DNA from: Arthrinium phaeospermum
Lineage: Eukaryota; Ascomycota; Sordariomycetes; Amphisphaeriales; Apiosporaceae
Reading direction: 5' to 3'
Assembly (NCBI GenBank): GCA_006503535.1
Contig: QYRS01000004.1
Span: forward strand, 3,658,001 to 3,722,000
DNA length: 64,000 bases
The position numbers and the translations under genes were made by a program. Of this stretch, positions 1,247-38,152 are shown one piece after another. Each line of letters opens with the position of its first letter. The stretch's first letter is position 1. A model generated the notes under the pieces. It was not told the origin of the DNA and searched no databases. It saw only the letters and a program-made list of their open reading frames with translations.

Positions 1247-1754
1247 TTAAGCATCGTCGCCATCATCGTCCGCGATATCAGAGATCTTGAACAAGTTGTT
1301 GGTCCATCGGATACCGAAAACGTCCTCGTTGTGGTGAAAGACGCTGTTGATGGCATTCAGGACAGCCTGCTCGCGGGGATACACAGTGCGCGGGGGCGTG
1401 TGGTCCATGAAGTCATCACTAGAAAGAAAGAGAGTAGATGTCAGTATAAGGAGGTTTTCGTGTAGAACTAAAAAGGGAGATGTGCGTTTCTGCAACAGTG
1501 GCTTCGAAAGAGGAGGCACGCTGTACTTACATGTTCTCGCTGAGAAGATCGATGATCTCCGTGCGCGCAAGGGCTTGCTTCTCGGCGGCAAGGCTAGTGA
1601 AGGCTGGTGTGTTCGACAGCACCTTCTCCATGACTGCCTTGGCGCGGTGCATTCGCTTCCCCTTGCGCTGCTGGCCGTACTTAAGATCGCCGCTTGTCGA
1701 AGGGGCAGCAGGTAGGTCGGCTTTGGCTTTGGCTTTGCCTCTTGTCTCAGGCAT
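1247..1754 (-). CDS. Small two-exon family protein, member A (131 aa)
   Basis: Exons 1531-1754 and 1247-1418 join across a 112-nt phase-2 GT-AG intron to give 131 residues. I recognise no known domain. The N-terminal half is basic (RGKAKAKA near residue 5, QRKGKRMHRAKAVMEK near 30) and predicted helical. The second exon begins with IDDFMDHTPPRTVYP and continues with a HHNEDVFGIRW segment and an acidic tail. The same layout and the same intron position recur in seven other genes of this window. The start was chosen because the ATG follows a TATA box at 1891-1899 and gives a family-like N-terminus. After the TAA stop the frame stays open for another 14 codons. Function unknown; a nuclear or nucleic-acid role is only a guess from charge. 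Confidence 0.8.
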
Positions 1755-1890
1755 ATTGAAGCTGCGTGCGACAGATCGGCGAAGTTTTCGGGACAATTGT
1801 AGTGATGTTGAGATGTTGAAGCTGGACAAGGGATCTTTGGGTTGTGTCGTCGGCGAGAAAATGAAAGTGACAGATGGGTTGACAATGGAG

Positions 1891-1984
1891 TATTTATACC
1901 CTTGGTAAATCAACAGAGTATTGAATCGAAGAAGTATTGAATCGAACGAGTATTGAATCGAAAGAGTGTTGAATCGAAAGAGTA
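1891..1984 (-). promoter_or_regulatory. Promoter of member A: TATA box plus four 16-bp direct repeats
   Basis: On the minus strand a GTATAAATA box lies at 1891-1899, about 140 bp before the ATG. Just upstream, at 1921-1984, are four head-to-tail 16-bp units of the form TTGAATCGAANNAGTR (plus-strand reading). Their core, read on the minus strand, is CGATTCAATAC or CGATTCAACAC. A related ATTCAATAC core occurs before members C, D and F. The arrangement looks like a clustered transcription-factor site, which is inference. Confidence 0.6.
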
Positions 1985-2237
1985 TCACGTCAAGATATTT
2001 CTGAATCGGTACCATTATCAAACATTGAATTCTTCGCCGCCTTTTCACCCAGATCTTACATTACCTGATGTAATGCTCGTCCCAAAGCTCTCACTACGCA
2101 GGTCCAGACGCCAATGAAATGAGAGATTTCAGCCTGGTATTAATCCGATTACAGAGAAGGGCACCGAGATGTTGACAAGAGTACGAGTAGTTCAATTCAT
2201 GATAGCTTCCTGTCCTAATCGGCGTGGCAAATGAGGT

Positions 2238-2381
2238 TTATTGCTGATACTGGGAACCCTCACTAGAGTCCTCAGCAGAGCCTTCATCTAATTCCCTCTT
2301 GCGACCATTGCTAGTAGTCTCATCAGACTCTGCAGACTCTGCAGAACCGGCATTATCACCAGCAACCCGAATCTTTGTGCC
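2238..2381 (-). other. Open 47-codon in-frame extension after the stop of member B
   Basis: Directly after the TAG of member B the same frame stays open for 47 codons to a TAA at 2238-2240. The encoded peptide is acidic and serine-rich (repeated SAES) with a short basic GRKRE stretch. It could be the former C-terminus cut by a nonsense mutation, a readthrough extension, or chance. Confidence 0.45.
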
Positions 2382-2862
2382 CTAAGCCTCTGCATCGATC
2401 TTGAACATGTCCTCGGTCCAACGAATGCCGAATCCGTCCTCATTCCAGTAGAAGACGCTGTTGCAAGCACTCAGAACAGCCTGAACGTGTGGGTAGCGGG
2501 TGTGGGGAGCCGTGTTGCTCATGAAGTCCTCACTAAACGACACACATATGTCAGCGCGATGAACATTGCAATTCCTCGAACGAGGAGAGATATCCTTCAC
2601 CCTTGACTAGATAGGGGGTACTGGGCGGGGGCGGGGAAACGCACATGTTTTCGCGAAGCAAGGCTTCAATCTCCTCGGTCGCAAAGGCTTGCTTGGCAGC
2701 ATCCAGGCTGGCAAAAGCTGGGGAGTCCAGCAGGACCTTGTCGAGGTAGGCCTTAGCCCGCTGGAATCGTTGCCATACGCGGAGGGGGAATTCTTTTAGG
2801 TCGGCGCTGGTGAAGACGACCGTAGGAAGCCGTGCCTTGCCTTTTCCTTCCTTGCTGGACAT
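2382..2862 (-). CDS. Small two-exon family protein, member B (122 aa)
   Basis: Exons 2645-2862 and 2382-2532, with a 112-nt phase-2 intron, give 122 residues. The N-terminus is basic (MSSKEGKGKARL), followed by a helical RVWQRFQRAKAYLDKVLL segment and DSPAFASLDAAKQAF. Exon 2 reads IEDFMSNTAPHTRYPHVQ and then FYWNEDGFGIRWTEDMF. It is closest to neighbouring member A, which has the same orientation, intron length and FGIRWT motif, so the pair probably arose by local duplication. The stop is TAG within GCTTAGGGC, and the matching place in A is GCTTAAGGT. The long open frame beyond the stop is listed separately. Function unknown. Confidence 0.78.
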
Positions 2863-4133
2863 CGTGAAACTGCGTGAAGGTGATGTTAATAGGCAAATAC
2901 AGGATACAATCTCAGAATACCTACCTCTTGAATTCGAGAGCGGTCGCGTCTTAGGAATAGGTGTACTGGTGTTGAGAACTTGAAACTCAAGAGGTTATGG
3001 GACAGCGGATGTCTTGAGATCGGAATAATTTTGATGTGAATCTCGCGGGAGCTCGTACCACATGTGAAGCTTGATACCACAAGTGCTGATGCTCGCCGCA
3101 GTATTCTCACTACACCAATTTCGTATTTTAAAATTGAATTGGGAGCTAAAGGCTGCTACGTCTCTACTCACGAAGTTGATCACTGTAGTTTAAAATAAAG
3201 ACGCGACTTCCTGGTATATATTCATGGCTGTTCCTGCAAAGGGACTTCCAGCTCCAGGTGTAGCCTAGGTAAATGTCCCCATTGCGACGTCATTGTCCCT
3301 ATTGCCCTGTGAATCATACAATGGTTTGTCACTACGACTACTCAATATATGTGAATAATGCTGCACCTTAATGTTGATTGTCAATCAGATGTTAGGGGGT
3401 ACACTGGACAACTGTGTGCCGTTGTCTAGAAATGACGACTGCGAGCTGAAATGATGTGATTGCTCGATACTGTAGCATACCAGACTTCATCGTAGGGATC
3501 AAGACTATGACAATGAGTTAGGCACAAGGATCTGCATACTGCTGCCCCTGGGATATGGGCGACCAGACCCCGCAATTGGAGAGATGAGAAGAAGATTGTA
3601 AGCATGAGTGAATCGGAATTTAACAGCTCGGGAGTCATCCCAATCGACATGTCATGTCATAGGGTGCCAGACCGTATGTATGCCACTCTCAACGTATTCA
3701 TCTGCCATTTGCGAGCTGGTGAAACCTGGTGATTACAAACCAGTGAGCGTCAGGGGTAACCACCAGCAAAATATCGTGACTCCTGACCGAATGTCACCCT
3801 ACCCAAATTTCCCATGAGACAGAATCGATAAGTTCTCACTATAAAGTATCTCCCTTCCACAGTTAATTGGGGGCACAGGAAGCCCCTAGGAGGCCTGGCA
3901 AGGGATGTTTACATACAAGTATTAATGCTTTGCGGCTCAGTTGTAAAAGGAAGCATTTGAGTACGACCAAGCGAACGTGAAGGTAATGGATGCTATCTTC
4001 TCCCACAAGTCTTGCTACTGAACCTCGGTCGGCGTTTAGCTTAGCTGTTATCTGTATTCAATTTTATTCTCGCAAAATTCCTATAAGGCGGTACGAGAAC
4101 CGTGAAGCCCGAGTGAATGCAGTGTCCCGAACG
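2863..4133. other. Intergenic between divergent members B and C
   Basis: Shared upstream region of the divergent genes B and C. A TATATA stretch near 3214-3220 could be the TATA box of B, giving a long leader. No further gene is supported; the short frames here have no protein-like character. Confidence 0.5.
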
Positions 4134-4212
4134 ATTCAATGTGCCATATTGTTCTCCATTCAATAGTACATTCAATACAGCTCCTCGATTAGCAATTCTC
4201 TAGCTATAAAAG
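4134..4212 (+). promoter_or_regulatory. Promoter of member C: three ATTCAAT boxes and a TATA box
   Basis: ATTCAAT occurs at 4134, 4158 and 4170, the last as ATTCAATAC, followed by TATAAAAG at 4205-4212, about 145 bp before the ATG. The same core stands upstream of the TATA box in members A, D and F. Confidence 0.5.
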
Positions 4213-4357
4213 ACTCCCTCCATACCACCCCTCAACACCCATCTCGCCGACTCTGTAACACATCGCCGTCCCTGCAGCGCCTCGCCAACTGTGCAGCACC
4301 ACGCCGAGCCTCTCTTCCGAGAATAATTGACAACGACACGCGAACGAAGTCCTGAAG

Positions 4358-4964
4358 ATGTCCGACCGCAAGGGCAAACAGCGAGCCACCCGCTCTACCG
4401 CTCAGGGCCAGAACAACAACGACGCGTCCCAGAACCAGGACAACAACAACGGCGCCCAGCCCAACCCTGCCCCTGCGGCTCAGACCTCTGCCGACCTGGA
4501 TTTCATGCCCATGCGTGTGTACCAGCGCCGTATCCGAGCCCGCGTCACCATGGAGCGAATCCTTGCTGCGTCGCCGAGATTCGCCGTACTGTCTGCCGCC
4601 AACCAGAACCGCATCCGCGAGGCGATCGAGGACACCATTCGTGAGAACATGTACGTGAAGCACTGACCGCGTAGAGTACATCGTCGCCGCACACAGAGTT
4701 GAGCGCTGACCGCGTAGACTACGTGGTCACCGCACAAAGACACTCCCCCCCTTGACATTACAGCATAGACTGACCAATTTCCCTTGACTATCTAGCCTCG
4801 ACTTCATGCACAACAGTGCCCCGCGGACCTTGTACCCCTACGAGGCCGCCGTTCTGAATGCTGTCCGAATGACCATCCAGTGGAACCCGGACATCTGCGC
4901 ATACGATGAGAACGAGTGGCAGGCTGGTTTGCCCGATGAGGCTGATGATGATGAGGAGGATTAA
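4358..4964 (+). CDS. Small two-exon family protein, member C (153 aa)
   Basis: Exons 4358-4650 and 4796-4964, with a phase-2 intron of 145 nt, give 153 residues. It opens with a basic MSDRKGKQRATRS and an Asn/Gln-rich low-complexity stretch (about residues 18-45). The helical MRVYQRRIRARVTMERIL segment and SPRFAVLSAANQNRI follow. Exon 2 begins ILDFMHNSAPRTLYPYE, continues IQWNPDICAYDENEW and ends in a run of Asp/Glu. The basic-then-acidic layout and the intron position place it firmly in the family. It is divergent to member B. The intron contains a 43-bp tandem duplication. Function unknown. Confidence 0.82.
4663..4743 (+). repeat. Two-copy tandem repeat inside the intron of member C
   Basis: A 43-bp unit starting CTGACCGCGTAGA at 4663 is repeated from 4706 with several substitutions. 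It accounts for most of the intron's extra length over other family introns. Confidence 0.75.
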
Positions 4965-5629
4965 TGCGCATCAATGGTTACATGACACGGCGTCAAAGTC
5001 ATCGTCGATGGCTATGATAACTGCCTCGACAACGTCATGATAACCCGGTATTCGACTGGCGGCAATGTGACCTTTGGCAGACGTGTAGTTCTGACTAAAA
5101 GGGTATATACAGACCGTGCACTCGTTGCCTAAAGTGCACATATTTACTCATACACAAAGAAGATGTTCACCAAAAGAACCGGCAGTATATAGGCAATAAT
5201 ACATTGCTCTTTACTCCCTGAGGTCTAGATAAGACTCTGTGATGTGCCATAGTGGTAACTATCTCAGAGATAATGCCTTAATCAATATGGTGCGCAGCTT
5301 GAAATATGTATTCTGTTTCGACCCGACGTGATATACTGTGAGATATACTGTGATTGCTGTCAGAATGACGACCGTCAGTACGGATAAAAGGAAAACTATA
5401 CTGGTATTAACCGGAGAGATCAGCTTATGGCAACTAGGGGGAATAATACTGGCATGCCAGTACACAAAGTAAATTGCAGCCTTGGTAGGAGTCATGCGAG
5501 GTGCTAAGTGGCTGTCGACAGTGTCCGGGCTGGCCGGGAGTCTGCGGAACGGCGGGGATACCAGCGGCCGGCATGGCATTGCGACAGCGACCAAAACCAG
5601 CGGGTTGCTCACGTATATCGCGGGGTGTG
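4965..5629. other. Intergenic 3' flank of member C
   Basis: No supportable gene. A minus-strand frame at 5259-5669 contains one hydrophobic stretch but its other end runs into the GC-rich repeat, so I do not call it. Confidence 0.5.
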
Positions 5630-6200
5630 GTAAAGGCGCCCCTTTCGCCCTTACCGCCGCCCCTTTCACTGCCCCTTTCGCCGCCCTTATCGCCGCCCCT
5701 CTGCCACTCTTTCGCTACCCTTCGCCGCCCCTTCGCCGCCCCTCCGCTACTCTTTCGCCGCCCTTTGCCGCCCCTTTGCTGCCCCTTCGCCGCCCCTTCG
5801 CCGCCCCTTCGCCGCCCCTTCGCCGCCCCTTCGCCGCCCCTTCGCCGTCCTGTTGCCGTCCTGTTGCTACCCCTTTGCCGCCCTCGTTCGGAAACCGTTT
5901 ATAGATTTTTTTTTTTTTTTATAGCCCTTTAAAACTTTTTTAATATTTAATTTCTTTATTATTCCTTCGCCGTCTTTTCGCTGCCCTCGTTTTAAAATTG
6001 TTTATATAACTTTTTTATCTTTTTTATATAAATTTTTTAAAATTTAACTTCGTTCGTATAATTTTTAATAATAATAATAATAATAATATTTCTTAGCTAT
6101 TAAGCTCACTTTTAATCGGCGGTAAAGGACAGCAAAGGGGTAGCGAAAGGGGCGGCAAAAGGATGGCGAAGGACGGCGGCGAAAAGGGCCCGGGGCGCGC
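5630..6200. repeat. GC-rich minisatellite arms in opposite orientation around an AT-rich core
   Basis: From about 5630 to 5890 the plus strand is an array of roughly 11-bp units of the CGCCGCCCCTT type, most regular at 5785-5845. From about 5900 to 6115 the sequence is almost pure A/T, with poly-T runs and an AAT run near 6068-6087. From 6118 to 6180 the same GC-rich unit returns in reverse complement (GGGGCGGCAAAAGG type). The two arms therefore form an imperfect fold-back. It resembles a non-autonomous inverted-repeat element or a structure-forming repeat; no transposase is present and no target-site duplication was identified. Confidence 0.6.
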
Positions 6201-8692: not shown

Positions 8693-9294
8693 ATGCAGTT
8701 CTTCGCCATTGTTCCCGTCCTCTCCGCCCTTGCCGGCTTGGCTCTGGCTTCACCCGTCCCTGACGCTGTCCCTGATGTCCTTGCCGGCCAGGCCAAGGAC
8801 ACCATCTTCAAGTATTGCACCGGTGATGATTTCGGCGGCAACTGCAACCGCGACGACGACAGCAGCGTGAACCATTGCGGTGAGTGACTAATCTGTGCCC
8901 TTTCTCCCTCGTTCTGCGACATCGATTCTTGTGCTGACAACAGGCCGTCTTTGCCTTTCTCATTGACAGAGGCTGTATCCTTCAAGACCATCAAGTCGCT
9001 GAAGGTTTACAAGGGCTACAAGTGCACCATCTACATGTAAGTGAGAAGTTCCGACCACCACTGCCCCAAACCATCTCTTGGGCCGCTTCATTTCGTTCCT
9101 CGTCCGGTCCATTTCGCTCCTCATCCGCTTGTGTTATCGTCGCCGCGCCTAGACCGCATGATGCTGACCTACTTCGTTTTCTTTTCAGGGCCGCAAGTTG
9201 CACTGGCGACAGCCGAGCCTACACCGAGGGTGAGGTCCCAACCATCCCTACCATCTATCAGGACTTCCAGTCCTACAAGTGCGTCAAGGTCTAG
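8693..9294 (+). CDS. Small secreted cysteine-containing protein (119 aa)
   Basis: Three exons (8693-8879, 8970-9036, 9189-9294) splice in frame to 119 residues. Residues 1-19 are a classic signal peptide (MQFFAIVPVLSALAGLALA), probably cleaved before SPVPDAVP. The mature part carries six cysteines (KYC, GNC, NHC, YKC, ASC, YKC), an even number suited to three disulfides in the secretory pathway. It resembles the general class of fungal small secreted proteins, which includes effectors, but I recognise no named family. The start is supported by the CA-rich leader and the signal peptide. A longer in-frame start at 8489 would spoil the signal peptide. Confidence 0.85.
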
Positions 9295-9638: not shown

Positions 9639-10083
9639 CTAAGCAGCGGCCGCACCAGGGGCTTGAGGGTTGTTGTCAAACATGCCGGCAACCCACTGAA
9701 CGCCGTACTTCGGGTTGTTCCAGTGGAAAATGGTCTTGAGGATGGCGCGTACTGCCTCCTTCATCGGGTAGATAGATCGCGGCGGGTTCAGATCCATGAA
9801 GGTGGTGCTAAGCATAAGGAGAAAACGTCAGTATACATGCATACATACAATATAGGGGGGAGGTGATGAATTTCAGGGGGTGACAGTACTTACACGTCAT
9901 CGTAAAGTTGGGCCTTAACCTCTTTGAGGATTTCCTGAGACCGGCGGTGGCGGGCGTGCTAGCCAAGAACTCGGCGACATAGGGCTTGCACTTTTGGATA
10001 CGTTCCCATCGGCGCTGAGGTAGATTTTTCAGCTCGGCGCTGGTAGCCGGCTGTGCGGCGGTGTTTCCTTGGTTGTTGGACAT
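9639..10083 (-). pseudogene. Small family member D, frameshifted in exon 1
   Basis: Exon 1 (9894-10083) and exon 2 (9639-9807) align closely with intact member F. They share AAQPATS near the N-terminus, then QRRWERIQKCKPYVAEFL, and in exon 2 FMDLNPPRSIYP, IFHWNNPKYGVQW and GMFD. Exon 1 is 190 nt, against 209 in F, and has the wrong length modulo 3 for the conserved phase-2 junction. After STPATAGL the frame slips, and the family-like sequence SQEILKEVKAQLYDDV continues in another frame, in phase with exon 2. About 16 nt relative to F appear to be missing around 9940-9950. Exon 2 ends at a TAG. The gene looks recently disabled, unless this is a sequence error; a shortened protein could still be made. 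Confidence 0.7.
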
Positions 10084-10545
10084 TGTCGGAGAAGGGGTGT
10101 TATGGTGTGATGTCGCTATGCACTTTCGTTGAAGGGGAGTGTGTAATGGAGGATCAAGTTGAGTTATTCTGTGTCGGCGATTTGAGATCTATTTATGCGG
10201 CTTTTGGTCGGTGAACACGGTGTTCTGATGTGAATACAACGTCCAGTGTGAATAGAATATCCTGGCGTAAATACGAGCGCGGCGTATTCAATGTTCTATA
10301 GTGAATGTATTAGAAAAAGAACGGTTGTTGGACATTTTCTAGGAAGAATTGGTATGATGTGATGTCGCTATGTATTGTTGTTAGAGGGGGTTGTATGATG
10401 GAGGATTAAGGTGAGTGATTCTGTGTCGGCGGTATGAGGGTCTATTTGTGTCGCCCATGGTTGGTGAATATATGTTCTGGTGTGAATAGAACGTCCTGGT
10501 GCGAATATAGGCGCCGCGTATTCAATATTTTATAGTGATGGTAGA
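10071..10545 (-). repeat. Tandem duplication of the D promoter and start codon
   Basis: The block 10071-10312 (first codons, leader, TATA box at 10189-10197, GTATTCAAT at 10284) is repeated imperfectly at about 10323-10545. The second copy has a GGTTGTTGGACATT start-codon block at 10323, a TGTGTCGGCGG leader and GTATTCAAT at 10518. It has no coding region behind it, so it is a promoter remnant. The D leader also matches that of member F (ATAAATAGATCTC followed by a CGCCGACACAGAA block). Confidence 0.75.
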
Positions 10546-11068: not shown

Positions 11069-12181
11069 TCAGGCCTCGTCAGTTCCCTTAAACCTATCAA
11101 TGATGTTCCTGATATCGGCGAAGCTGAATTCTGCCAGTGTCTCTTCCCATATCTGATCTCTCAACGCCTCTCCTTCAGTGGTATAAATGATTGGTGCCAT
11201 ACTTCGTATGGCGTCGTGTATTAGTTCGAGTATGCGAAAAAGAGGTCGAGAGGGTCAAGATGAGACAGACTTACGGCTTAATCTTCTGTTCGGAGAGGTA
11301 CTGACCGTGTGATTCTGGTCCATGGTTGACGGCCGCGTCTAAGATGAGACGGGCAGCCATCGCAGAAGTGTATCCTAGCTTGCGTCGGATCGGCTCCACG
11401 ATTTTGCTCGCCAGTTGAGCCTTTGTCTCACGGTTCATATTGGAGTCGTGAACCATACCGGGTGTCGCCAGGTTGATGACGGCCATGGAGGGGGAAACCA
11501 CGGTGGCGAGCTTGGCAACAAAGAATTGGCCCAGAAGCTTGGCAAGGAACTGGCGATCGAGGGCGCTCCAGGGTGCCGGCTTATCGAGTGCGGAAAGCAG
11601 AGGCTTCTGCTTTTTCTCGCTGAACTTGGTCCAAGCAGCGCCGTCAGAAGAGGTGATGGTGATGCGAGTGGGCTGACTCTTTGGTTTCGTCCTAATGACA
11701 TCCAGGAGCAAGACCAGCAGGAGGCACATGGATAGGTAGTTGACCTGGACGCATTCGTCATGGCCGGTCTGGGGGTTCAGGGTCTGCTTCGCCGGGAGGC
11801 TACCGGCATTGAGGATGACGAGATCTATCCTCTCGAGGTTTCTTGTACGATCTGCAAAGGCGCGAACTGAGTCGTAGGAAAGGTAATCCAACTCCCAGAC
11901 CTCGATGCTGCGGCCCGCGAGATTCCTCTCGCGCGAGAGGTCGGCAGCAGCAGCTTGGCCTCGTTCCTGGCTCCTGACTGCCAGAATAAGCCTGGAGATG
12001 CCCAGATCCAGTAACTGGCGACTGCATTCGAGGCCAACTCCGCAATTGGAGCCTGTCACAATTGCCGTTTTACCCTCAAGGCTGACCCCCGCTACTTGTT
12101 GAGGGTGAAGAAGAGTTGGCGATAGAGATACGAGGGCACGCTACCCTCCTTCTGAGGAGTAACATCAAAGTTCGGGGCCAT
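11069..12181 (-). pseudogene. Short-chain dehydrogenase/reductase with a frameshift and degenerate active site
   Basis: Exons 11275-12181 and 11069-11201 encode a fungal NAD(P)-dependent short-chain dehydrogenase of the retinol-dehydrogenase/WWOX-like type. Visible motifs are the nucleotide-binding TGSNCGVG, the strand motif LVILNAGS and ITSSDG at the catalytic-serine position. The C-terminal exon reads MAPIIYTTEGEALRDQIWEE. Two defects are visible. The ATG-proximal part (MAPNFDVTPQKEGSVPSYLY) is out of frame by one base with the rest; one extra C near 12103 would restore the frame. The usual YxxSK active-site segment reads QFLAK, so the catalytic tyrosine is missing. It is therefore probably a pseudogene or a non-catalytic paralogue. 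A sequence error could explain the frameshift but not the missing tyrosine. Confidence 0.65.
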
Positions 12182-14039: not shown

Positions 14040-14525
14040 ATGACCAACTGTCTCGATTACACTGCTATAAGCAGCCCTATTGCTTACCGGCCAATATGGG
14101 CCAAGCGCAAGAAGACCGAAGCCATTGCCCGACACTTCTACATGAAGAGCGCGGCGGGGCTGCTGGGCACCAGCGACCAAATCAAGCTGTGGGCACTGGT
14201 CCAAGTTCGGATATCTAACACCGTGTAAGTTCTACTCCCAAGTCTCGCGGCGACAGCGAAGCTCTGCGGTATGTTGATTTGCTGTAGGCAATATCTAACC
14301 TTGGTCTCTAGCGAACAACACATCAAGACAAACGCACCTTGGGCGGTGTTCTCGTACGAAAGAGAGGCCAAGAAAGCCGTCAGGTCATCGTTGGTAGACG
14401 GCATGGGACCATACGCGGTCCAGGGGGAGGACGAGCCGTTTCCCAAACGCTTGATGGACATGCTAGATGCGTTGGAGGCTTTGGATCTATTGCATATTCT
14501 GGACACTCGCCTTGTCAGATGTTGA
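14040..14525 (+). CDS. Divergent small two-exon family protein, member H (132 aa)
   Basis: Exons 14040-14224 and 14312-14525, with an 87-nt phase-2 intron and a TCTAACC branch site, give 132 residues. Sequence similarity is low, but the plan is the same. Exon 1 has a basic YRPIWAKRKKTEAIARHF helix followed by KSAAGLLGTSDQIKLW. Exon 2 begins VEQHIKTNAPWAVFSYEREA, aligning with the IEEFMDETAPRTIY segment of member F. The tail is long and leucine-rich (LMDMLDALEALDLLHILD) instead of short and acidic. The family call rests on intron phase and position plus the aligned motif. Confidence 0.65.
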
Positions 14526-15413: not shown

Positions 15414-16130
15414 ATGGCTGATGTAAGTGCTCCTGGATTCGTTCAGCGTTCAGCACAAGAAAATTTCTGACCCGATCCCGTTTCTCCCACAAATCAGACA
15501 TCAGACAAGAAGCGCAAGCGCACCACCCGAGCGGCCGCAGCTAGCAGCAGCCAGGCCGCTGCCGATTCTCCCAAGCCGCCGACAAGCGGCAAGCTCAATT
15601 ACCGGCCGAGGCGAATCTGGAAGCGACGCCAGCGGGTGAAGGGTTTCGTGGAGCAGCAGCTCAAGGAGACTGCCTTTGTTCTACTTGAAGATGAGAACAA
15701 GAAGAGCCTGCTTTTGGAGGCCATCGACAAGTGTTTGACCGACGACATGTAAGTTGTTATTCTACCAGAATTTCGCTCTCTCTCCATTACAACTCCTGTG
15801 GGATCATCACGCTGACTGATGCACTCATTTACAATCAACAGCAACCACTTCCTGGACAACAGCCCTCCCGGCGCCTTTTACCCGTATGCGCTGCGGGCGC
15901 ACGCCGCCATCCAGACTGTCTTCCGAGACAACTTGGACCTGTTCAAGGGTCTTGGTGTCGAAGGCACCAACAAGGAGCGTGAAGATGTCGACGGCTTCGG
16001 CAATGTCGTCGCTGAGCCCGTCCTTGAGGAGCTTTTCCTCCAGGGTGAAGAGTTCTTCCTGGAGATGAACGCACCCCGGGACGCCAGCGACGACGAGATT
16101 AACGATACCCCAGCCTCGAGCAAGGACTAA
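15414..16130 (+). CDS. Small family protein, member E, with a 9-nt first exon (182 aa)
   Basis: Exons 15414-15422 (only MAD), 15498-15748 and 15842-16130 give 182 residues. The basic N-terminus reads TSDKKRKRTTRAAAA, a plausible nuclear localisation signal. YRPRRIWKRRQRVKGFVE aligns with the basic helix of the other members. The conserved phase-2 intron separates CLTDDM/I from NHFLDNSPPGAFYPYALRA. The C-terminal region is longer than in other members and acidic, ending near DASDDEINDT. The start is inferred: an ATG with a GTAAGT donor nine bases on, keeping the frame. Alternatively the protein could start further downstream without the micro-exon. Function unknown. Confidence 0.75.
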
Positions 16131-17445: not shown

Positions 17446-17901
17446 ATGTCCGCCCCCAGCAACAACAACAACGCCGCCCAGCCGGCTACCAGCGGCGAGT
17501 TAGCGAATCGCCACCAGCGCAAATGGGCACGCCTCGAGAAGGCAAAACCTCACATCGCCGCATTCCTGGCTAATACCCCTGCTCTTGCCAACCTGACTGC
17601 GGAGCAAAAGGAGCAGATCCACCGCGAGATTCGAAGCCAACTCGGCGATAATATGTATGTGTATCCCCCCCTTCCAGCATTCTCACATATATAAGTATAC
17701 TAACCCCTTATTCCTGTGATTAGTGAGGAATTCATGGATGAGACCGCCCCTCGCACGATCTACCAAAACAAGGAGGCAGTCCGGGCCGCGTTCAAGGCCA
17801 TTTTCCACTGGAACGAACCCAAGTATGGCGTTCAGTATACCGATGGAATGTTTGACGATGCGAACCAGGTCGTTCCCGCTCGCGTCAACAACAACTCTTA
17901 G
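17446..17901 (+). CDS. Small two-exon family protein, member F (128 aa)
   Basis: Exons 17446-17654 and 17724-17901, with a 69-nt phase-2 intron, give 128 residues. It opens with an Asn-rich stretch, then AAQPATSGELANRHQRKW, LEKAKPHIAAFLANTPALA and NLTAEQKEQIHREIRSQL. Exon 2 reads IEEFMDETAPRTIYQNKEA and IFHWNEPKYGVQYTDGMFDD. It is the closest relative of the broken member D, and they also share promoter and leader sequence, so they are recent duplicates. F looks intact, with clean splice signals and a good TATA box. Its acidic tail is shorter than in A and C. Function unknown. Confidence 0.82.
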
Positions 17902-21611: not shown

Positions 21612-23196
21612 TTACAAGAGGAAAAGCCCGCTGCCGGCGAGCATGAAGACGGTGGTCGCCCCTACCACGGCCAAATGCGCCCACTCAAAGGCGGGGACGA
21701 TGCCGGCCGCGCTCTGGAAGCCTTTACTAGCGGCGTACGTGGGTTGCGCGACCGAGCCGTCGCCGGATCCCGTGGCGGCGACTTGATTCTGGACAACGGT
21801 GCCGCTGGGAACGGCAGCGCCCTTGCTAGGGAAGGGAACAATGTTGGTCTTGGTCGAGTTGAAGTCGGTCTTGGCCATGCCGATCTGGTTGTTCTCGAGG
21901 TCGTAGACGACGTAGGCGGATCGGAGGAACGTGTCGCCCAGGAGGAACGGCTCGCTGGTGAAGTTTTGGATCCCGAACTGGCAGATGGGCTGGCCCTTAT
22001 ACTGGCCCGACTGGAACTTGGGGACGTCGGCTCCCTCCGCGATGTCCAGGACCAGCTCGGTCATATCGACGCTGATCTTGGGGCCGTTGGGGCCGGCGAA
22101 TCCAAACTCAAAGGTACCCTTGCTGTTCTCCATTCCGCAGGGAACGAAGGCCATTTGGGTGTAGGTGTCGTACACGGCGCCGACCTCCTTCCAGACCTGA
22201 ACAGCAAGCTCGGTGGGGAGGTAGCTGAGAGTGGTACCAGAATCCAGCACAACAGGGATGGGGAATTGGCGGGTCGTGAGCGTATCGGAACCGGAGGGAG
22301 AGTTGGCGGTCAACGAAGTCATAGCGACGATGAAGGACGTGAACGCGTTGGTCTGCGAGTCCTTCTGGACGTTGATGACCGACAAGTCGCCTTCGTACTT
22401 CTCGGTATCGACACCGCCAAACAGGATTTGGCCAGTGCTAGCATCCAGATCGTTCAGCCACAGACTGTAGGCATTCGTAGCAATCAGGCCCTCGTCCATC
22501 ATCTGCACCGGCAGATTGCGGTAAGCCGACGAGGCTTTCTGCGTGTCGGCAACAATGGCCTCGTTCAGCGCATACCCAACTCCGATCAGCCCATACGGTA
22601 TATCGGTATCGAGCCCCAGGCCCATCGTCACGTTGGTGAGCTTGCCGCCACCAATTTCGAAGTCATCGGTGAAATAGTCGCCATTAGAATGACTGCCATC
22701 GACGTAGGAGATGTTGAAGAGGTTTTTGCCGACTATATTGAAGGACGTCGACTTGCTGGAATCGACTGTGCGCAAATCCGTTAGCTACCCAATCCGCGTG
22801 GGCCAGCACAGTGAAATTAATTGGGGACTTACATGATCCGAGGGTGCAACCCTCGTCATCTCCCCCCGAAGACTCGCCGTCGCCTCCTCTAGATCCGCCC
22901 GACGGAGAGGATTTTGTGCATACTGATGAACTGCTCGATGGTACCCAGATATCACTCGAGCCCGTGTCCAATTGCAAGGTCAACTTCTGGCCCGGAGACC
23001 CGACCGATACTGTCGCAAAGTAACCTCCCCGGTTCACGTCGTTCTTAATGGTTTCTTCGTAAGTTGTAGCATCCCGCCTGCTCAGTCCTTGCCGTTTGGG
23101 ATGTGTTGCTCTCTTGGCAATATCGAATTGCACAACCTGCGCGTGGGCGGCGGAAGCCATCAGCGACACGGTCGCTAGTGTTGCAACGGTCTTCAT
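21612..23196 (-). CDS. Secreted GPI-type aspartic protease, yapsin/candidapepsin-like (505 aa)
   Basis: Exons 22833-23196 and 21612-22765 give 505 residues. A signal peptide (about 1-19) and a short propeptide with dibasic KR and RR sites precede the pepsin-fold domain. The two catalytic aspartates lie in DTGSSDIW (77-80) and DSGTTLSYLP (about 296-299). A Ser/Gly/Asp-rich insertion near 87-115 precedes the CTLGS region, typical of yapsin-like enzymes. The C-terminus ends in a small-residue and Ser/Gly linker and a hydrophobic tail (AVVGATTVFMLAGSGLFLL), which indicates GPI anchoring to the plasma membrane or wall. The family (MEROPS A1) cleaves cell-surface or secreted proteins. The promoter shares a 16-bp element with member F. 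Confidence 0.93.
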
Positions 23197-28763: not shown

Positions 28764-29459
28764 AATGGAAGTGGATAAGTTGGTGAGAGTTTCTGTGGTT
28801 TTGAGTGTTTGGTGGCGTTCGAAAGAAGTCGAGATTGGTAAGATGAAAGAGGTTGAAGTTGGCAGGATGAAAGAAGTTGAAACTGATGGGATGAGAGAAG
28901 TTGAAACTGAGAGGATTGGCGAGCTGATTTATACCGTTGGATGCATGGTGAGGCAAGGGCCTGTACCTAATCTACTCAGTGTGGGCCATTTGTAGCAAGG
29001 TATGAATTACCACCGGGATGAATCTATTGAAGAGAATCATTGGGAGTCTTAATCTACTACTGTGTACTTGATGATTTTAGCCCAAGGCTGTGTTTTGTTT
29101 TCCCTTTTTGCTACCTGATTAACGAAAAGCTTTGTTGCCAAACGGCCAACATTGCCCCATATCAGGTTTTGTATTTTCCACTGAACGAAAGGGACATACC
29201 AGTGAGTACCGGCGGGGAAGTTCTTACAGCTGGAGAGCCGCGTGACATTCTATGCGTGTTGAACAATGACTGCCAGAGTATTACGTTCGGCACTGCGTAG
29301 TGACTGTGCATTTACCTGCCAAGCCTGCCCAAGGTAGGAGTGAAGAAGTGATCGGCGATATGAAATATGACTTGGTCTCTTTGAGCGCTGATGCATCAGT
29401 GAAGCCCTTTTCCATGTAGTTGTTTCCGACCAAATTACTTGTCTTCCTCATGAATGCTG
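28764..29459. other. Promoter and leader of the secreted-protein gene, plus intergenic
   Basis: Minus-strand TATAAAT at about 28923-28930 is followed by a leader made of imperfect repeats of a TTTCAACTTCTTTCATC type (28820-28910). The rest shows no gene. Confidence 0.5.
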
Positions 29460-30745
29460 TCCAACCTGGAGCAGGCACGCAGACTAAAAGGAGTCGGCGG
29501 TACTCGCGACAAGCTTTTGCTTATCGATACCTACCAAGGCTCAGGGCGTACGGAAGGGGCCGCCGGTAATAAAGAAGATTCCGCCGGCTCTTTCCACGAT
29601 GAAGCAGCAGCGAATGCGGTCCAAGCCGGGCCAGGTACACAAACAAAAAGGGTCGGAGATATTACATATCAGTACTTCTAAAATCTCGGAGGGCGCACGA
29701 AAGGTGTCGGCGAAACACGACAACCTTCTGCACATCGGTCCCTACCAAGTCTCAGGGCGTAGGAAAGGGGCCGCTGGTAGTGAAAGAGATTCCGTGGCTC
29801 TTTCCGCGGTAACGCAGCAGTGAATGCGCCAGCACTTTCCGCGGTGGCATAGCAGTGGATACGGTCCAAATCGGAACAGGTACACAGACAAAAAGGGTAG
29901 GCGATATTGCACATGGGTGCCTAACAAGTCTCGGAGGGCATACGAAAAGGGGTCGGCTGTATTGGAAGTGATTCCGCCAGCTCTTTCCATGGTGAAGCAA
30001 GGTTCCACCGGCTCTTTCCACGGTAAAGCAGCAGTGAGTGCGGTTGGTCCAGACCGGGGCAGGTGCGCAGACAAAAAGGGGTCGGCGATATTGCACATTG
30101 GTGCCTACAAGTCTTGGAGGGTATACGAAAGGGGTTGGCGAAACTCGGCCATACTTTACACATTGGTATCTACCAAGTCTAGGAGGACGTACGAAAGGGG
30201 TCGGCGGTAACCTTCGGGTATTTGGTCTATTGACACGAAAGGGGCCGCCTGTAGTGAAAAAGATTCCGCCGGCTCTTTCCACGGTGAAGCAAGATTCCGC
30301 AGGCTCTTTCCACGGTGAAGCAGTAGTGAATGTGTTCCAAACCGAGGCTGGCACGCAAAAAAAAAGGGGTCGGCGATACTGCACATGCACATCAGTGCTT
30401 ACCAAGTCGAAGAGGGCACACGAAAGGGGTCGGTGAAACTCGACAGTATTTTCTATATTGGTGGTCACTAACTCTCGGAGGGTGTACAAAAGGGGTCGGC
30501 GGTATTAGAAGTAATTCCGGCTCTTTCCACGGTGAAGTAGCAGTGAATGCGCCAGCTCTTTCCACGTTAAACGTAACAATGATTGCGGCCCAAACCGGGG
30601 CAAGCAAATCAACAAAAAGGGGTCGGCGAAACTCGACAAGCTTCTGCACATCGGCGCCTACAAAGTCTCGGAGGGCGTACGAAAGGGGCCGCCGGTATTG
30701 GAAATTACTCCGCCGGCTCTTTCCACGGTGATGCAACAGTGTAGC
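29460..30745. repeat. Degenerate tandem repeat array, about 1.3 kb
   Basis: About six copies of a composite unit of roughly 180-290 bp. Each combines modules that recur many times: CCGGCTCTTTCCACGGTGAA, an AAACCGGGGCAGGT-like block leading into ACAAAAAGGGGTCGGCG, a TTGCACATNGGTGCCTACCA-like block, and GGAGGGCGTACGAAAGGGG. The GGGGCAGGT-like block occurs near 29465, 29628, 29873, 30055, 30345 and 30597. Long reading frames cross it on both strands (up to 245 codons), but they are repeat-derived and change with copy variation. No transposase or terminal repeats were found. Confidence 0.75.
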
Positions 30746-30905
30746 CGTCTACCAAATAGATTTTACGGGTCATTTTACTTGCCCTTTTGTTGAAGAAATG
30801 CAGCCCAAATACAGCCGGCTGATTGGTTCTCGTGGGGACCAAAATCGGCATTGTTTACCCCACGATCCTCAAGTCACGTCAACAAACCATTTCACCCACC
30901 TCTCA

Positions 30906-31265
30906 CAATACTTTCTACCCAAACATTTCCGCAAGTCTCCTCCGGACTTGCAAAATAAAGCCTTCCGCAACCCCAGAGCATTCCGGAAGTCTCACCCCTC
31001 CGCTCAAACTTATCAGTCCCGGTCACGACCGCAACTTTCTCATCCGGCACTCAGGATCCGGACCCCATACACACATAATTTCACCTTTAACAATACTTTC
31101 TATTCAAAGAAATCCGGAAGTCACCCCCGGACTTGCAAAACCAAGCTTTCCGCAACCCCAGAACATTCCGAAAGTCTCACCCCCTCCGCTCAAACTTACC
31201 AGACCCGTTCAAGACCGCAACCTTCCCATTCCACACTCCGGATCACAGATTTGATACACAAATAA
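30906..31265 (+). repeat. 185-bp tandem duplication upstream of the Myb-like gene
   Basis: The block starting CAATACTTTCTACCC at 30906 is repeated from 31091 with about 80-90 percent identity by eye. It includes CCGGACTTGCAAAA, TTCCGCAACCCCAGA and CTCCGCTCAAACTTA. The second copy ends about 35 bp before the ATG at 31302, so the duplication covers leader and probably promoter. Confidence 0.7.
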
Positions 31266-32040: not shown

Positions 32041-33882
32041 AGTTGTCATTGCCAACATTTGTTTCACCAAGGATAGACCACATGGGTTTCTTCGGATTTC
32101 TTCGGCGGTTCATTTGTTTTCTTCGGCGGTTTGTTTGCTTGTCCTTTTAAGATGGACACTGCAACTTGAGTTGCAGCATGGATAGTTGATACAAACCGTT
32201 TGTGACCACACTTGCCCGCTGTGCCCCTCACGTAGTCTATATGTCTCCCGGCGCCTCTACTCGTCAGGTCGACGCTCATAGCGGAGTGAGTGCTTCGAAA
32301 CAATGGGTAAGGTGTCTCTGCTTTTCCAAGGTGGAAAAGAAAGGGAAAAGAGCGAATCCACTGCGGCGTCTCCCCTGGTCTCGGCACTGCAGGCGAGAGG
32401 CGCACCGGCGTCAATCTTATTTCCTGGGTTTGGTTCTCCTTCGCTTCGCTCGCCATCTTTTTCCAAGCCTCAGTGGCTAGTTTCCCACAGCCACAAGTGA
32501 GAAGCGTGCTCAGATAAGATCTCACCAAGCGAATCCCAAGTTTCGTTCTTGTCGGTGTTGTTTCTGGCAAAACATGGGGTGTGCATATACCGACCGATGT
32601 AAGATTTGAGGCGGATTTCGGCATCGTCGTTTTGCTACATTGGTATTCTACAACCGGCGATACTTTAGTCGGTAACAAACAAGTATCAGAAGGAAGTCCT
32701 GGTGGGTTGGTCCAGGCTATGCCACGAGAATCGCTCATGGTCCGGCACCCGTTACGATCTTGATGGAGCTATATCCAGTCTGGAGATCGGTGCGTGAATT
32801 GCAATCCCCTGCGATACGTGAGCTCGAGCCTGTGCCCTTCCCCGTGGGCGATCGAACATCAATTTGTAGTATGCTTACAGGCAGGATGGGGGGCGTGTTC
32901 TTTGTCCCCTTGCAGGCCTGTGGGCAAGATAAGCTCGGCGTGGCTATCATTCCCGGTCTAGCAATATAGTACCCGCCTGGAATCGCGAAGGGACCCGCTG
33001 AATGAGGGCGTGGGGCGCGAGAGGCGTCCACATTGGGGGCAGTGATACGCCATTTTCCTGCCTGGGGTGGGGAGCCGCATGTTTTCAGCAAGGCACGCAC
33101 AGACCTGGGCCAAACCTTCTTCACCCCTGCCCGCAGCCATCATCCCATGTTATCGCCTAGCATTGGGCCAGTCAATGTGACCAATATCCACCGACGCCCG
33201 GACTTGACCAAGATTGAAGGTCGACACACGGAGACACGGCCGAGTGGGCGAAGCCATGCAGTCGTTGAAAACGTGCAAACAACCTGGGCACCTTCATAAA
33301 GAACCCGCTTTCCTCCCCTCCTCCCCTCCTCAACGCAGGAACCCCGCGAGTAATGCTCGCGCATGCAACAACGATAACGCCGAACATGTGGGGGTTACGC
33401 TTCGACACTGCAGTAGCTGCCGCTGTAACCTTACAACCTTAGTTGAAATATCGGGTTGGGATTGGGGCAAGATCCGCAGGGAATGGGCATCGTTCGCCCG
33501 GCCACGTGAAGCAGGCAGGCCGGTTCCCTGTCATCTGGACTTTTGGCTTCTTAAATACCTGGGGATGCAACGGCGCTTCCTCCCGTCCTTCTCCCTGGCC
33601 TCCTACATCACGGTTCACCGTGTCACCCAAATATACCATCGCTACCGCCTCATGAGGCCCGACGAGGATCGCCTTGTCATATCGGCCCTCTTGCTAGAAT
33701 AGCAGCAGAAGCAGCCGCCACGCCACGCCACGATCGACACTCATTTCTGTCTCTTTGCCTCCTGCTCGGTATTATTACGATTCGATGCCACTTTAACCCG
33801 GCAGAAACGAACGACTCACCAAGAACGGGTTTTCCCCCGAATATATAAACTCGAAAAATAAAATCACCACAAGCAACGAACA
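32041..33882. other. Intergenic, 1.8 kb
   Basis: No supportable gene. The last 100 bp carry a TATATAAAC at 33842 and an AC-rich leader for the membrane-protein gene. Confidence 0.55.
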
Positions 33883-35275
33883 ATGGCTTTCCTCTTTCCC
33901 GTCGAAACAGGCGCGCAGTACCTGTTCGTCGTCTGGTCGGTGTTCTTCACCGTCATGGCGACAGTGGCTGTGGGCATGCGCCTCCTGGCTCGCCGTGTCG
34001 CCGACAGGAAGCTCGGCTCCGACGACATCCTCATGGTCCTTTCGTTGATAGTGCTCCTAGCCTACCAAGTCGTCAGTATCTTAGGTACGCCCGTCCCGCC
34101 TCTAGAGGACCACCAGCCTGGCTGGCTCCTCCTAAATCGCATCGTCGTGCGCGTTATTGACTGGGTATCATCCACTATGCAGCCGTAGTAGTTGGGGGGA
34201 TGGGCTTCCATATCGACGACATCGAAAATCGGTTCCTAGTTCTCCCGCCATCCGAGATCTTCACCAAGGTAAGACGGGGACTCTGCCGGCCGTTACTAGA
34301 AACCTTCACTGACCTTCCGATAAACTACAGTACCTCCTGGCCACACAAATTATGTGGTGTGTCAACCTGACCCTGACCAAAGCCTCCATCTTGACGCTGT
34401 ATACCAAAATCTTCACCATGCGGCCTTTCGTCCTTGTGGCCAAGATCACGATGGTGGTGACCGCCTCCTGGTAGGTTCCTCGAGTCGGACGCCCCCTTTT
34501 TCGAGTCGGGAACAGTGTGCTAACCCACGACCGATCAGCTCCATCATTATGATCGTAGGGTCCCTCTCGGTTTGCCGGCCCGTCGCCTTCTACTGGGACA
34601 AGAGCATCCAGGACGGCGCCTGCGGAGACTACCCGGCTCTGTGGACAGCCAATGCCTGCATTACCATCGCCACCAGCGTGGTCACCCTCGTCCTTCCCAT
34701 CCGTCACGTATGGAATCTCCAATTGGAGCGGAATAGTAAAATCTTCTTGATGGGAGCTTTCAGTCTCGGATTCTTGTACGTTCTGCTCTATGCGCCTGCC
34801 CCTGACATACTTCCCCATACACGCACACCAATTCATCAATTATCTGGGGAGAAATCGGTCGACTAATTTTCCATCTTTCATTCTCCGAAACAGAACATGC
34901 ATCGCCGGCGCCGTCTACATCAGCATGATCGCGTCCTACGACCCCTCCGACTCGACCTACAACGCCCTCCCGCTGATGCTGGTGGCCTTCGTGGAGCCGG
35001 CCATGGGCATCGCGCTCGGCTGCGTGCCGGTCATGCGGCCGCTCTTTCATAAGGGTGGCACCAACAGACGACACACGGGAGCGTTGAGGCTGGCGCCGGA
35101 CTCGTCGGCCGTGTCGGCCAGCTGCCTGCACTCGAAGAACTCGTACAGCTCCTCCCCGGCCCTCGGGGGCGGCGGCCAGCACGAGCTCCAGGCCATCACG
35201 GTGAAGACTTCGTGGTATGTGCATCACCAGGGGTCGGATAGTCGGTCGTTTCTTGGGAGTCGGAGTAGTAAGTAG
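33883..35275 (+). CDS. Rhodopsin-domain (Pth11-like) integral membrane protein (348 aa)
   Basis: Five exons (33883-34084, 34183-34268, 34331-34470, 34539-34775, 34894-35275) splice in frame to 348 residues. Hydrophobic segments (FVVWSVFFTVMATVAVGM, ILMVLSLIVLLAYQVV, WCVNLTLTKASILTLY, SIIMIVGSLSVC, ACITIATSVVTLVLP, IFLMGAFSLGFL, LPLMLVAFVEPAMGIALG) fit a seven-helix bundle. RLLARRVADRKLGSDDIL, LTKASILTLYTKIF and DGACGDYPALWTANA are hallmarks of the fungal rhodopsin-domain family. This family includes Pth11-type receptors but also many orphans. No CFEM domain is present. The C-tail is Ser/Gly-rich and cytosolic. Its ligand cannot be predicted. Confidence 0.9.
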
Positions 35276-36666
35276 GTAGTGTATGATACGGAGGGTAGAG
35301 ATATTGGGAGGCCTTGAGTGGCTCCTTCACTTGTACGATACTATGTCAGAGCGCATTACTAGTGATTAGATGCTCGTGGCCCTTGGTATGTAGCGAGAGC
35401 TTATTGTATCTATTACTGAAATACAACATTTGAAATAAGAAGTCGTGCAATTCTTCTTGAATAGTCGTGAAGCTCGATCGAGTAAAGATACAACGAGCAA
35501 ACGAACGATTTGGAAAATGGAGAAGACCGAATACTTTCCGCCCATATCCTCGACAACGGTGGGCTCCTCGATTACATAGGTACACTTGCTTCAACCTGCC
35601 CGCCTGCAACGTTGCGGTAGGACTTTCACGGTTGCATGGGACGGTCAGGTGAGGACCCCGCGCCGGCGGCGCTCGACGGCTGAGGCGGCACAAACGGTGA
35701 TCTTCTTCAAGCTCACCCTAAAGGCTCGCATACATACAGCCGAGGGGTCGTCCCAGAAACAGAAGATAGGGAAGGTAAGCAGCAGCATGATGTAAGATTT
35801 GATAAGGGAGAAGCCTTTGATGCACTAGAAAGAAGATGCTCGGCTACCTCAAAGTCATGACAGTGAAGGTATTCCTAAACCAAATAAAAGTAAGCAGCGA
35901 TCGAATAAAAAAAGAAACGAATATGAGGAGATGGAGCTGAACCTCCTGTGCTCACCTGACTAAGATGGCTGCAAGAAGCAAGCATAGAATGTCGAAAGAT
36001 GCAGCCCGATGACATCCGCTAATGCACGGCATGTTAACCGAATGCTTGTTTGTTGCCCTGCGCACCTTCGGAGCTGAAGGGTCGTGCGACCCGAGGATGT
36101 GGTGAGCGGTCAGCTTTTTAGGGTTCGGCTAGGCAGGAGACAGCTTCATTCTGCGAGGTCGGCAGCCGGCATCCCTGGCCGACCTGAACTCATTTGGCGC
36201 TTGCAAACCTAATGACAAACCAGCTGCACACTCTCCTGGCAACTGGGTCAAACATTGGAATTTCCTGCTGTTCAGCTCGTTTGCCAATAAGCAGCCACCG
36301 CGCCCTGGAATGCAAGGCACCTACGTCATTTAGACGGAATCTCCGGGACGCTTGCTCGAAGACCATGAGGAAACAAACACGACAGACAGAGGCCCATGGC
36401 AGAGGGGTCTACCACCGCCGGTGGCTTGCTTACGGCGCTGCTCGTATTTGTTTGGCGGTGGCGTTTGTGTTGATCTTCATTCGAGTCCCCCTTCCCCCTT
36501 TCTGACTGGACAGCGGCGCGAGCCAAGACAGTATAAAGACCAGGCCAACGGCTGCCAAGACATTGATCATCAACTCGCATACCAATCAATCTGAATCAAC
36601 TCACTCTTGAAGATCTCCATCATAATTACATTCTTACGTGCCACTCAAGATTCAAACTCAATCAAG
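35276..36666. other. Intergenic, 1.4 kb
   Basis: No supportable gene. The end carries a GTATAAAGA-type TATA box near 36531 and the leader of the following secreted-protein gene. Confidence 0.55.
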
Positions 36667-37201
36667 ATGCGTTCCTTCACCATTGCCCTTTCTCTCCTCC
36701 TTGGCTCCGCCTTTACGTAAGCACCCCATCCTCCTCCCGGACTTAGAGCTTGTTCAAGACACTAATACCCGATAGTTCCGCGGCGGATGCGGCCGTGAAG
36801 CCCACCCAGACCCTTCCGGCCACTTGCACGACCACCAGCCGGTACGGACTCGCGACCCACAGCTGCTACACGGCCACGCGCTACACCACCCGCAGTGCGT
36901 CTATACCCCTTCTCCTCTCCACCATTTCTTACCAGTTATACACCTACCTAATATACACATACTAATACGCGAGAACACAGTCGGCGGCTGTGAGCGCCTC
37001 GAGTGCCCCCCGCGTACCAACCACGTCGAGTGCCCCCTCTTCATCCCCGTCACCACCGTCGAGGTCCCCTGCAAGACCGACTGCTGCCCCACCACACCGA
37101 CGCACGTTTCCACCACGCCCTGCCCGGAGCCGTGCCCGGAGTGCCCCCACTCAACGCAGACCCGGACCGTTACTACCGGCTGCCCGGTTTCCCAATATTG
37201 A
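36667..37201 (+). CDS. Small secreted cysteine-rich protein (129 aa)
   Basis: Exons 36667-36716, 36776-36894 and 36981-37201 give 129 residues. The signal peptide is MRSFTIALSLLLGSAFTSA, and the mature chain holds 12 cysteines, including CC and CPEPCPEC. The C-terminal half is Thr/Pro-rich, suggesting O-glycosylation and a wall-associated or extracellular location. I recognise no named family; small secreted Cys-rich proteins of this kind are candidates for surface or host-interaction roles. No GPI signal is seen. Splice phases (2 and 1) are consistent. Confidence 0.85.
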
Positions 37202-37471
37202 AAGCAAAGGAGTGGATGGGAACGAATCACGATGGCTGTATTTCTTCGACGAGAAGGGACGTAGATGGAGATGATGGAAATATTTCTTCGACGAAAGGGG
37301 ACGAACTACTGGAGGTTATGAGTAATGTTTATGTATTTGTTATGAGGGGGGTTGGAGTGGCTGGTTTCGGGGTGTAGGGATAGCTTTGTTTTATGAATCA
37401 CGAAATTGATTTACTGCAGTCACATTTAATAAAGGCATTTCGGGAAAGTCACTTGACTGGAAGCCCTTTGC

Positions 37472-37648
37472 CCAATACGGGTGCGGCGTGCAATTAAACT
37501 GCCAAATCTTCATAACGTTGTTCTCGTACTTCAGGGCCGCCGCTTTGTTGTTGTATACGTCAAGGTAGTTGGGGGCCGAGAAGATGGTCATGACACTTGG
37601 GAACCCCGTGGTCCTCGTCCTCTTTCGGTCCATTCGGTAGCCGGCATC
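37472..37648 (-). pseudogene. Calcineurin A (PP2B catalytic subunit) gene fragment
   Basis: The minus-strand frame from 37648 down to about 37472 encodes the phosphatase-domain segment of the calcineurin catalytic subunit. It contains [46 protein letters not shown] and [10 protein letters not shown], close to the conserved end of the PP2B catalytic core. About 59 codons match; the expected following helix is absent and the sequence turns unrelated. There are no introns and no upstream catalytic metal motifs. It starts immediately after the TGA of small family member G and in the same frame. It is a partial duplicate, not a working phosphatase. Confidence 0.85.
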
Positions 37649-38152
37649 TCAGTCGTCCTCGTCCTCGGCGTTCTCGGCCGGGACGGCCCAGTCGTCCTCG
37701 TTCCAGGCCATGACGTCCGGGTTCCAGTAGACCGCCGACTTGACGGCGGCCAGGACGGCCCCGCCGTAGTCGTACATGGTGCGGCGCGGCATGTGGTCTT
37801 CGAGGTCGTCCCTATATAGAATTGCAAATGAAACGTTAGTCATGCCTATGATCATAGGTTGGATAGGGACTGGGTCCGTGCACTATAGGATAGATACTGG
37901 GTCCGTGCGTTACGGGATAGTGAATGGGTCCGTGCGGGTATAGACTTACAGGTTCTCGGTGATGGCCTCCGTGCAGGCATCCCGGATCAGCTTCTGCTTG
38001 CCGGCGGGGAGGGCGGCGAAGGCGGCCAAAGCCGAGAGGATGCTGTCCAGGATGGACCAGCATTTTCTGTAGCGGTTGTAGAGGCGCATGGCCCGGAGGT
38101 TCGGCGGCTTGGGACCCGGCTGGGCACTTGCATTGTTCATTCTGCTGGCCAT
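37649..38152 (-). CDS. Small two-exon family protein, member G (121 aa)
   Basis: Exons 37950-38152 and 37649-37811, with a phase-2 intron of 138 nt, give 121 residues. Exon 1 has an Asn/Gln/Pro-rich start, then LRAMRLYNRYRKCWSILDSI and AALPAGKQKLIRDACTEAIT. Exon 2 begins LDDLEDHMPRRTMYDYG, aligning residue for residue with IDDFMDHTPPRTVYPRE of member A. It continues VYWNPDVMAWNEDDW and ends in an acidic EDEDD tail like member C. This is the only family member outside the first 18 kb. Its stop codon abuts a calcineurin A fragment. TATAAATAG at about 38361-38369 may be its TATA box. The intron holds a three-copy 27-bp repeat. Confidence 0.8.
37861..37941 (-). repeat. Three-copy 27-bp repeat inside the intron of member G
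   Basis: The block NTGGGTCCGTGC occurs at 37870, 37897 and 37924, each within a 27-bp unit. It is confined to the intron. Confidence 0.8.

Follow-up and report, generated by a model that had tools for sequence, protein, structure and literature searches.

The window analysed here (C4:3658001-3722000; 64 kb), part of the 48.4-Mb, 19-contig genome of Arthrinium phaeospermum, contains eight loci, termed A to H, which are members of one family of small intron-containing proteins. Judged by its sequences, this family is real, old and conserved, and among named sources it is found only in Apiospora. Each subgroup is recovered by profiles built without it, the conserved intron sits at one alignment position in every readable member, and seven of the eight loci have a counterpart in another Apiospora genome.

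Members and gene structure of the family

The end of the window lies ~0.36 Mb from the nearer end of the 4.08-Mb contig C4. Within the window we delineated the following loci (lengths in nucleotides, nt, and amino acids, aa):

1247..1754 (-): A; exon 1 1754-1531, intron 1530-1419 (112 nt, phase 2), exon 2 1418-1247; 131 aa
2382..2862 (-): B; exon 1 2862-2645, intron 2644-2533 (112 nt), exon 2 2532-2382; 122 aa
4358..4964 (+): C; exon 1 4358-4650, intron 4651-4795 (145 nt), exon 2 4796-4964; 153 aa, acidic tail
9639..10083 (-): D; exon 1 10083-9894, frameshifted, intron 9893-9808, exon 2 9807-9639
10323..10438 (-): relic; the stretch upstream of D and around its start codon in a second, ungapped copy (79%), from a repeat scan
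14040..14525 (+): E; exon 1 14040-14224, intron 14225-14311 (87 nt), exon 2 14312-14525
15414..16130 (+): G; exon 1 15414-15422, intron 15423-15497 (phase 0), exon 2 15498-15748, intron 15749-15841 (93 nt, phase 2), exon 3 15842-16130; 182 aa, long tail
17446..17901 (+): F; exon 1 17446-17654, intron 17655-17723 (69 nt), exon 2 17724-17901; 128 aa
37649..38152 (-): H; exon 1 38152-37950, intron 37949-37812 (138 nt), exon 2 37811-37649; 121 aa, acidic tail

Whole-genome protein searches and a profile search of the fetched loci yielded four further members outside the window:

C3, 1.272 Mb: I (protein/profile search)
C3, 1.287 Mb: L (protein/profile search)
C5, 2.732 Mb: J (protein/profile search)
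C4, 0.894 Mb: K (protein/profile search)

The loci were spliced via canonical GT-AG introns and their products aligned, giving eleven readable members (A, B, C, E, F, G, H, I, J, K and L) of 116–182 aa. Homology was assessed by leaving out one subgroup at a time: a profile was built from the remaining members, a representative of the omitted subgroup was searched, and its score was compared with the best of 200 shuffles. The omitted subgroups were recovered at 62.3 bits (H), 100.3 (G), 93.6 (F/D, with F as the test), 123.3 (A), 98.8 (B) and 105.0 (C) for the window, and at 122.0 (I), 98.7 (L), 83.1 (J) and 76.1 (K) for the loci outside it, the best shuffle in these ten tests reaching 3.8–10.1 bits. 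The weakest recovery was that of E (32.4 bits versus 10.5 for the best of 200 shuffles), which is the most divergent member and is kept in other species. D stood outside this test and owes its membership to its match to F (E-values of 1.1e-13 and 8.5e-12). With each subgroup recovered far above the shuffles, the proposal of the initial annotation that the eight loci form one family is upheld. Its description as a one-locus family holds for the local cluster of eight and fails for I, J, K and L, located elsewhere in the genome. Altogether, the genome holds at least 12 copies, eight of them inside the window; as the genome search scores the best candidates only, this count is a lower bound. No profile match with an E-value below 1 was found in the 30 kb upstream or the 10 kb downstream of the window.

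The conserved introns of all 11 readable members are bounded by GT-AG and span 69–145 nt. Their phase was computed for A, B, E, F and H and read from the frames for C, G, I, J, K and L, confirming the predicted shared phase-2 position in the seven window members other than D and extending it to the four dispersed ones. G possesses a second intron near its start codon, and probably so does I. D retains both splice sites (by eye) despite the frameshift in its exon 1, which agrees with the decay suggested initially; going by its reading frame, D is a pseudogene or an assembly error, and an intact ortholog (P0007) is present. The two motifs ascribed to exon 2 each describe a part of the family: PRTxY is strict in A, C and F and altered in B (PHTRY), D (PRSIY), G (PPGAFY), E (APWAVF) and H (RRTMY), while B, C and H alone match WN(E/P)D strictly, the motif being altered in D (WNNP) and F (WNEP), devoid of its tryptophan in A and missing from E and G.

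Three protein searches returned 34 relatives, six of which (P0012, P0015, P0022, P0023, P0024 and P0033) stop exactly at the end of exon 1, as expected from reading into the phase-2 GTAAG donor. These entries are therefore probably mispredicted, intron retention being possible. The family is compact and conserved in gene structure, and gene prediction often misreads its members. As a separate observation, positions 37563-37625 (-), just past the stop codon of H, match the C-terminal extension of the public H model P0004; this extension also matches C11:1132455-1132523 and is perhaps an extra exon or a shared repeat.

Age, selection and taxonomic range

In the family tree (31 inner branches, 19 of them starred and 3 open), A, B, E, F, G and H are each placed with proteins of Apiospora marii PG985 or PG991, and all of these groups except that of H include other species too (Apiospora sp. 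TS-2023a, A. saccharicola, A. hydei or A. phragmitis); support for the E pair is weak (82/53). Sequence identities amount to 85% (P0029) and 79% (P0027) for A, 94% over 104 aa (P0019) for B, 78% (P0010) and 76% (P0011) for E, 87% (P0005) for G and 88% (P0004) for H. These six groupings, together with P0007 as the counterpart of D, indicate that most duplications are old. Seven of the eight window members thereby have a counterpart in another Apiospora genome, C being without one among the protein-search hits, and this does not support the rapid repeated duplication envisaged at the outset. Nor are D and F near-identical, as had been stated: their proteins share 55% in the exon 1 part and 63% in exon 2, with a DNA identity of 71–75% across two ungapped stretches. 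P0007 falls outside the F group, to which TS-2023a belongs, and the D/F duplication hence predates that split. The gene numbers suggest that PG985 has largely preserved the order (H 011788, F 797, G 798, E 799, D 801, A 806), with rearrangement in TS-2023a (A 011456, F 459, D-like 462, G 463, E 464).

We further determined the ratio of nonsynonymous to synonymous substitution rates (dN/dS) for paralogous exons, obtaining 0.25 for exon 1 of A/B, 0.24 for exon 2 of A/B and 0.30 for exon 2 of D/F (pairwise Nei-Gojobori estimates over 43–55 codons with dS of 0.84–1.47). Selection is hence purifying on average and not arms-race-like; averages over such old pairs could hide selection at single sites.

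All 28 of the 34 relatives that carry a source name come from Apiospora, the nearest named proteins being those of Apiospora marii (95% identity between F and P0001), which suggests that the genome is that of A. marii or a close relative. Because the protein search can detect only those proteins that have 5-residue words in common and may have covered sister genera such as Nigrospora incompletely, the true range may be wider than Apiospora. None of the 34 relatives has a Pfam domain in the protein-search table. Scans of the 11 readable members and 16 relatives up to an E-value of 1 (one scan of G up to 0.001) gave no Pfam match at the curated cut-off, and the 16 relatives showed no NCBIfam match near cut-off up to an E-value of 0.1. 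This sustains the view of an undescribed family, a term that holds for the literature searched, in which no paper on the family was found; PMC9453082 concerns another Apiospora species.

Several weak matches were set aside. K matched EAD6 of Pfam at an E-value of 0.35 (11.6 bits versus a cut-off of 27), which we take as chance, and other matches restricted to single members (HrpB2, T4_CASP, Phenol_Hydrox, Ncstrn_small, PB2 627 and others) were all far below their cut-offs. Chains of poxvirus D5 appeared at an E-value of 0.26 with the A4 profile and not with the related A2 profile, and were likewise taken as chance. Our own early guess of a link to the HMG box was dropped, no HMG match being present in the family; no DNA-binding family (HMG box, homeodomain, bZIP and others) was among the Pfam matches of members and relatives.

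The family resembles the orphan multigene families of filamentous fungi in its restriction to one genus among named sources, its lack of domains, the coexistence of a cluster with dispersed copies and its uneven presence. It differs from them by its conserved phase-2 intron, its counterparts across several species and its purifying selection, features which argue for a settled function. It provides a clean case of how an orphan family arises, splits and keeps its function.

Predicted function and alternative explanations

The structural model of P0020 comprises main helices at residues 5–31, 41–65 and 74–88 and a short C-terminal helix (mean predicted local distance difference test score, pLDDT, of 74.2; predicted template modelling score, pTM, of 0.62), and the model of P0002, built on the same 16 rows, agrees with it (mean pLDDT 68). 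From a variable N-terminus the proteins thus run through a basic helix and another helix to the intron junction, beyond which lie the third helix and a mostly acidic tail. For segments cut by our own rule, the net charge of the first helix ranges from +3 to +7 in all 11 readable members, in agreement with the basic exon 1 helix described before, and that of the last 25 residues from -1 to -12, with values of only -1 to -3 in K, E, F and L. The tail change between subfamilies that had been noted is also borne out. The peak 19-residue hydropathy is 0.33–1.58 in all 11 readable members and their first 25 residues are polar by eye; based on hydropathy and inspection by eye (SignalP was not run), none of the 11 has a signal-like hydrophobic N-terminus. 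KKRKR near the start of G and RRSARAAKK followed by an SD run in K resemble nuclear signals by eye.

The basic first helix, the acidic tails, the helical models and the lack of a hydrophobic N-terminus together point to an intracellular binder of nucleic acid or of an acidic partner. Our best explanation, offered tentatively and at less than even confidence, is that the members are small intracellular, most likely nuclear, regulatory or chromatin-associated proteins. The arginine-rich first helix would contact nucleic acid or an acidic partner, the acidic tail would modulate this contact or mediate binding between family members, and the subfamilies would have diverged in their tails and probably in expression. 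Several observations weigh against this assignment: the overall isoelectric point (pI) is below 7 in 8 of the 11 readable members, which is ill-suited to a plain nucleic-acid binder; the confidence of the models is moderate; no known domain or fold was found for the family; and Foldseek gave no significant match, with best E-values of 2.5 in PDB for both models and of 0.69 in BFVD for P0020. The region-2 helical domain of a bacterial sigma factor (SigE, 8b3z) occupied Foldseek ranks 4, 1 and 1 and was never significant, and we regard it as a resemblance in shape only. The same acidic pI, along with the acidic tails and the helical bundle models, would suit intracellular protein adaptors in development or stress, for example in sporulation, that do not bind nucleic acid, and the array-type promoter of A and K (see below) is common to two apparently secreted proteins (L076 and L077). 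The conserved arginine-rich helix exceeds the needs of an adaptor, and we give this reading slightly less weight than the best explanation. Dispersal of the copies over three contigs, the partial relic and the low-complexity DNA nearby could indicate products of a domesticated or cargo mobile element that spread as small gene copies. Such an origin appears improbable: all 11 readable copies have retained the intron and so are not retroposed, six window copies group with copies of other Apiospora genomes, a repeat scan with a minimum of 40 nt, not aimed at short terminal repeats, revealed no flanking repeat pair, and Pfam found no transposase domain in the nine window open reading frames scanned. 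Secreted effectors acting on a plant host are the least credible of the explanations and very improbable, given 0–2 cysteines per member and N-termini that are not signal-like, by hydropathy and by eye, in all 11. In their favour, lineage restriction and clustering are common among effectors. Plant pathogens also occur within Apiospora.

It had further been proposed that the locus serves conflict or allorecognition, such that members would be self/nonself markers or partners whose diversity is kept by balancing selection. We consider this unlikely for the family, and the evidence that bears on it comes mainly from G. The G protein of PG985 (P0006) is 73% identical to G of Apiospora sp. TS-2023a and 64% to that of the window; by contrast, PG985 and the window share 90, 85 and 88% identity in F, A and H, respectively. 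The E protein of PG985 (P0013; 72% to window E) was left out of this comparison, its gene model looking faulty. E and F flank G in the window, as they do in PG985 and PG991 according to the gene numbers. The free tree pairs the G proteins of PG985 and TS-2023a (93/87; 89/90 in a rerun), and constraining those of the window, PG991 and PG985 to one clade carries a cost of 8.3 log units, with a p-value of 0.04 in the approximately unbiased test (p-AU); because this clade was chosen after seeing the tree and the p-AU is marginal, the discordance is only a hint. In group K, the tree puts a PG991 protein with A. saccharicola, apart from the window and PG985, and its closest match in the window genome is K itself. 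Against allorecognition stand the low dN/dS, the absence of HET, NLR or other incompatibility domains from the Pfam scans of the 11 readable members and 16 relatives, and the fact that differential loss of old paralogues (for G, of two old copies) would give the same pattern; moreover, three genomes are no population sample. Of the proposed role there thus remains a marginal genealogical hint, unaccompanied by domain evidence, and allorecognition is possible for the one member G. A G genealogy that crosses species recalls the self/nonself loci of Neurospora (PMC2988816), with which no shared domain was found and from which the present case differs by resting on few genomes instead of a polymorphism sample. 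An Apiospora-specific paralogous intracellular system is likewise improbable; in it, basic first helices would pair with acidic tails of other members, G and perhaps K would be maintained as ancient alternative alleles, and the whole would serve self/nonself or mating-linked recognition without any known domain. The G locus makes a test of balancing selection possible with a few more genomes.

Promoter arrays and surroundings of the window

Upstream of A we noticed a regular array, which had not been predicted:

1922..1974 (-): promoter array of A; four ATTCA units at 16 bp steps, above TATAAATA at 1898-1891

The promoter of K contains five ATTCA units at 17–20 bp steps above TATATT. D and F have two-unit runs, a looser word giving three units in D and two in E, and the units of C are irregularly spaced (by eye); the promoters of B, E, G, H, I, J and L lack any run of exact units. 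Genome-wide, three exact units at 16–22 bp steps gave 30 overlapping matches compared with 11 for the backwards control. The 30 were merged by hand to 18 distinct arrays, some of which look like simple repeats. Two of the 18 stand upstream of family genes (A and K) versus ~0.001 expected for 12 promoters of 500 nt, an expectation counted after the arrays had been seen and for paralogue promoters that are not independent. Among 558 strand-bins of 500 nt around the fetched members, only those of A and K hold at least three units.

From the other 16 arrays we selected four for their look (L075–L078; first 220 bases each in gene orientation, L077 from the minus strand). Their ATTCA units follow each other at about 17–21 bp steps, and in 4 of 4 a TATA-like box lies 20–34 nt past the last unit, such a box being held by 63 of 1584 background 100-nt stretches. 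A plausible start codon follows the box in each; two of the genes (L076 and L077) look secreted by eye, and none of the four shows homology to the family (best E-value 3). The array was therefore rejected as a family-specific signal. Its presence at unrelated genes suggests a wider promoter class in this fungus, partly used by the family, and offers a handle on what switches some members on. No paper on such promoter arrays was among the literature matches listed. Furthermore, five of the 12 copies (A, C, D, F and H) have TCGCCGA no more than ~115 nt from the start codon and J has it further off; the word could have been inherited with the gene copies. Unrestricted k-mer enrichment yielded weak hits, uncorrected for the number of words tested.

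Pfam assigns the following neighbouring features of the window:

11271-12140: short-chain dehydrogenase
21612-22784: aspartyl protease
34324-34866: fungal rhodopsin domain
41639-43096: fungal transcription factor domain
43877-44797: amidase
51784-53013: NAD-binding reductase-like

In addition, 8693-8887 (+) encodes the beginning of a small, probably secreted protein whose N-terminus is hydrophobic and signal-like (MQFFAIVPVLSALAGLALAS) and which has no Pfam match. A low-complexity stretch at 5673-5883 follows an 11-base period like GCCCCTTCGCC, and positions 29450-31250, to which no gene is assigned, contain a dense family of degenerate 44–102 nt repeats with several interleaved units.

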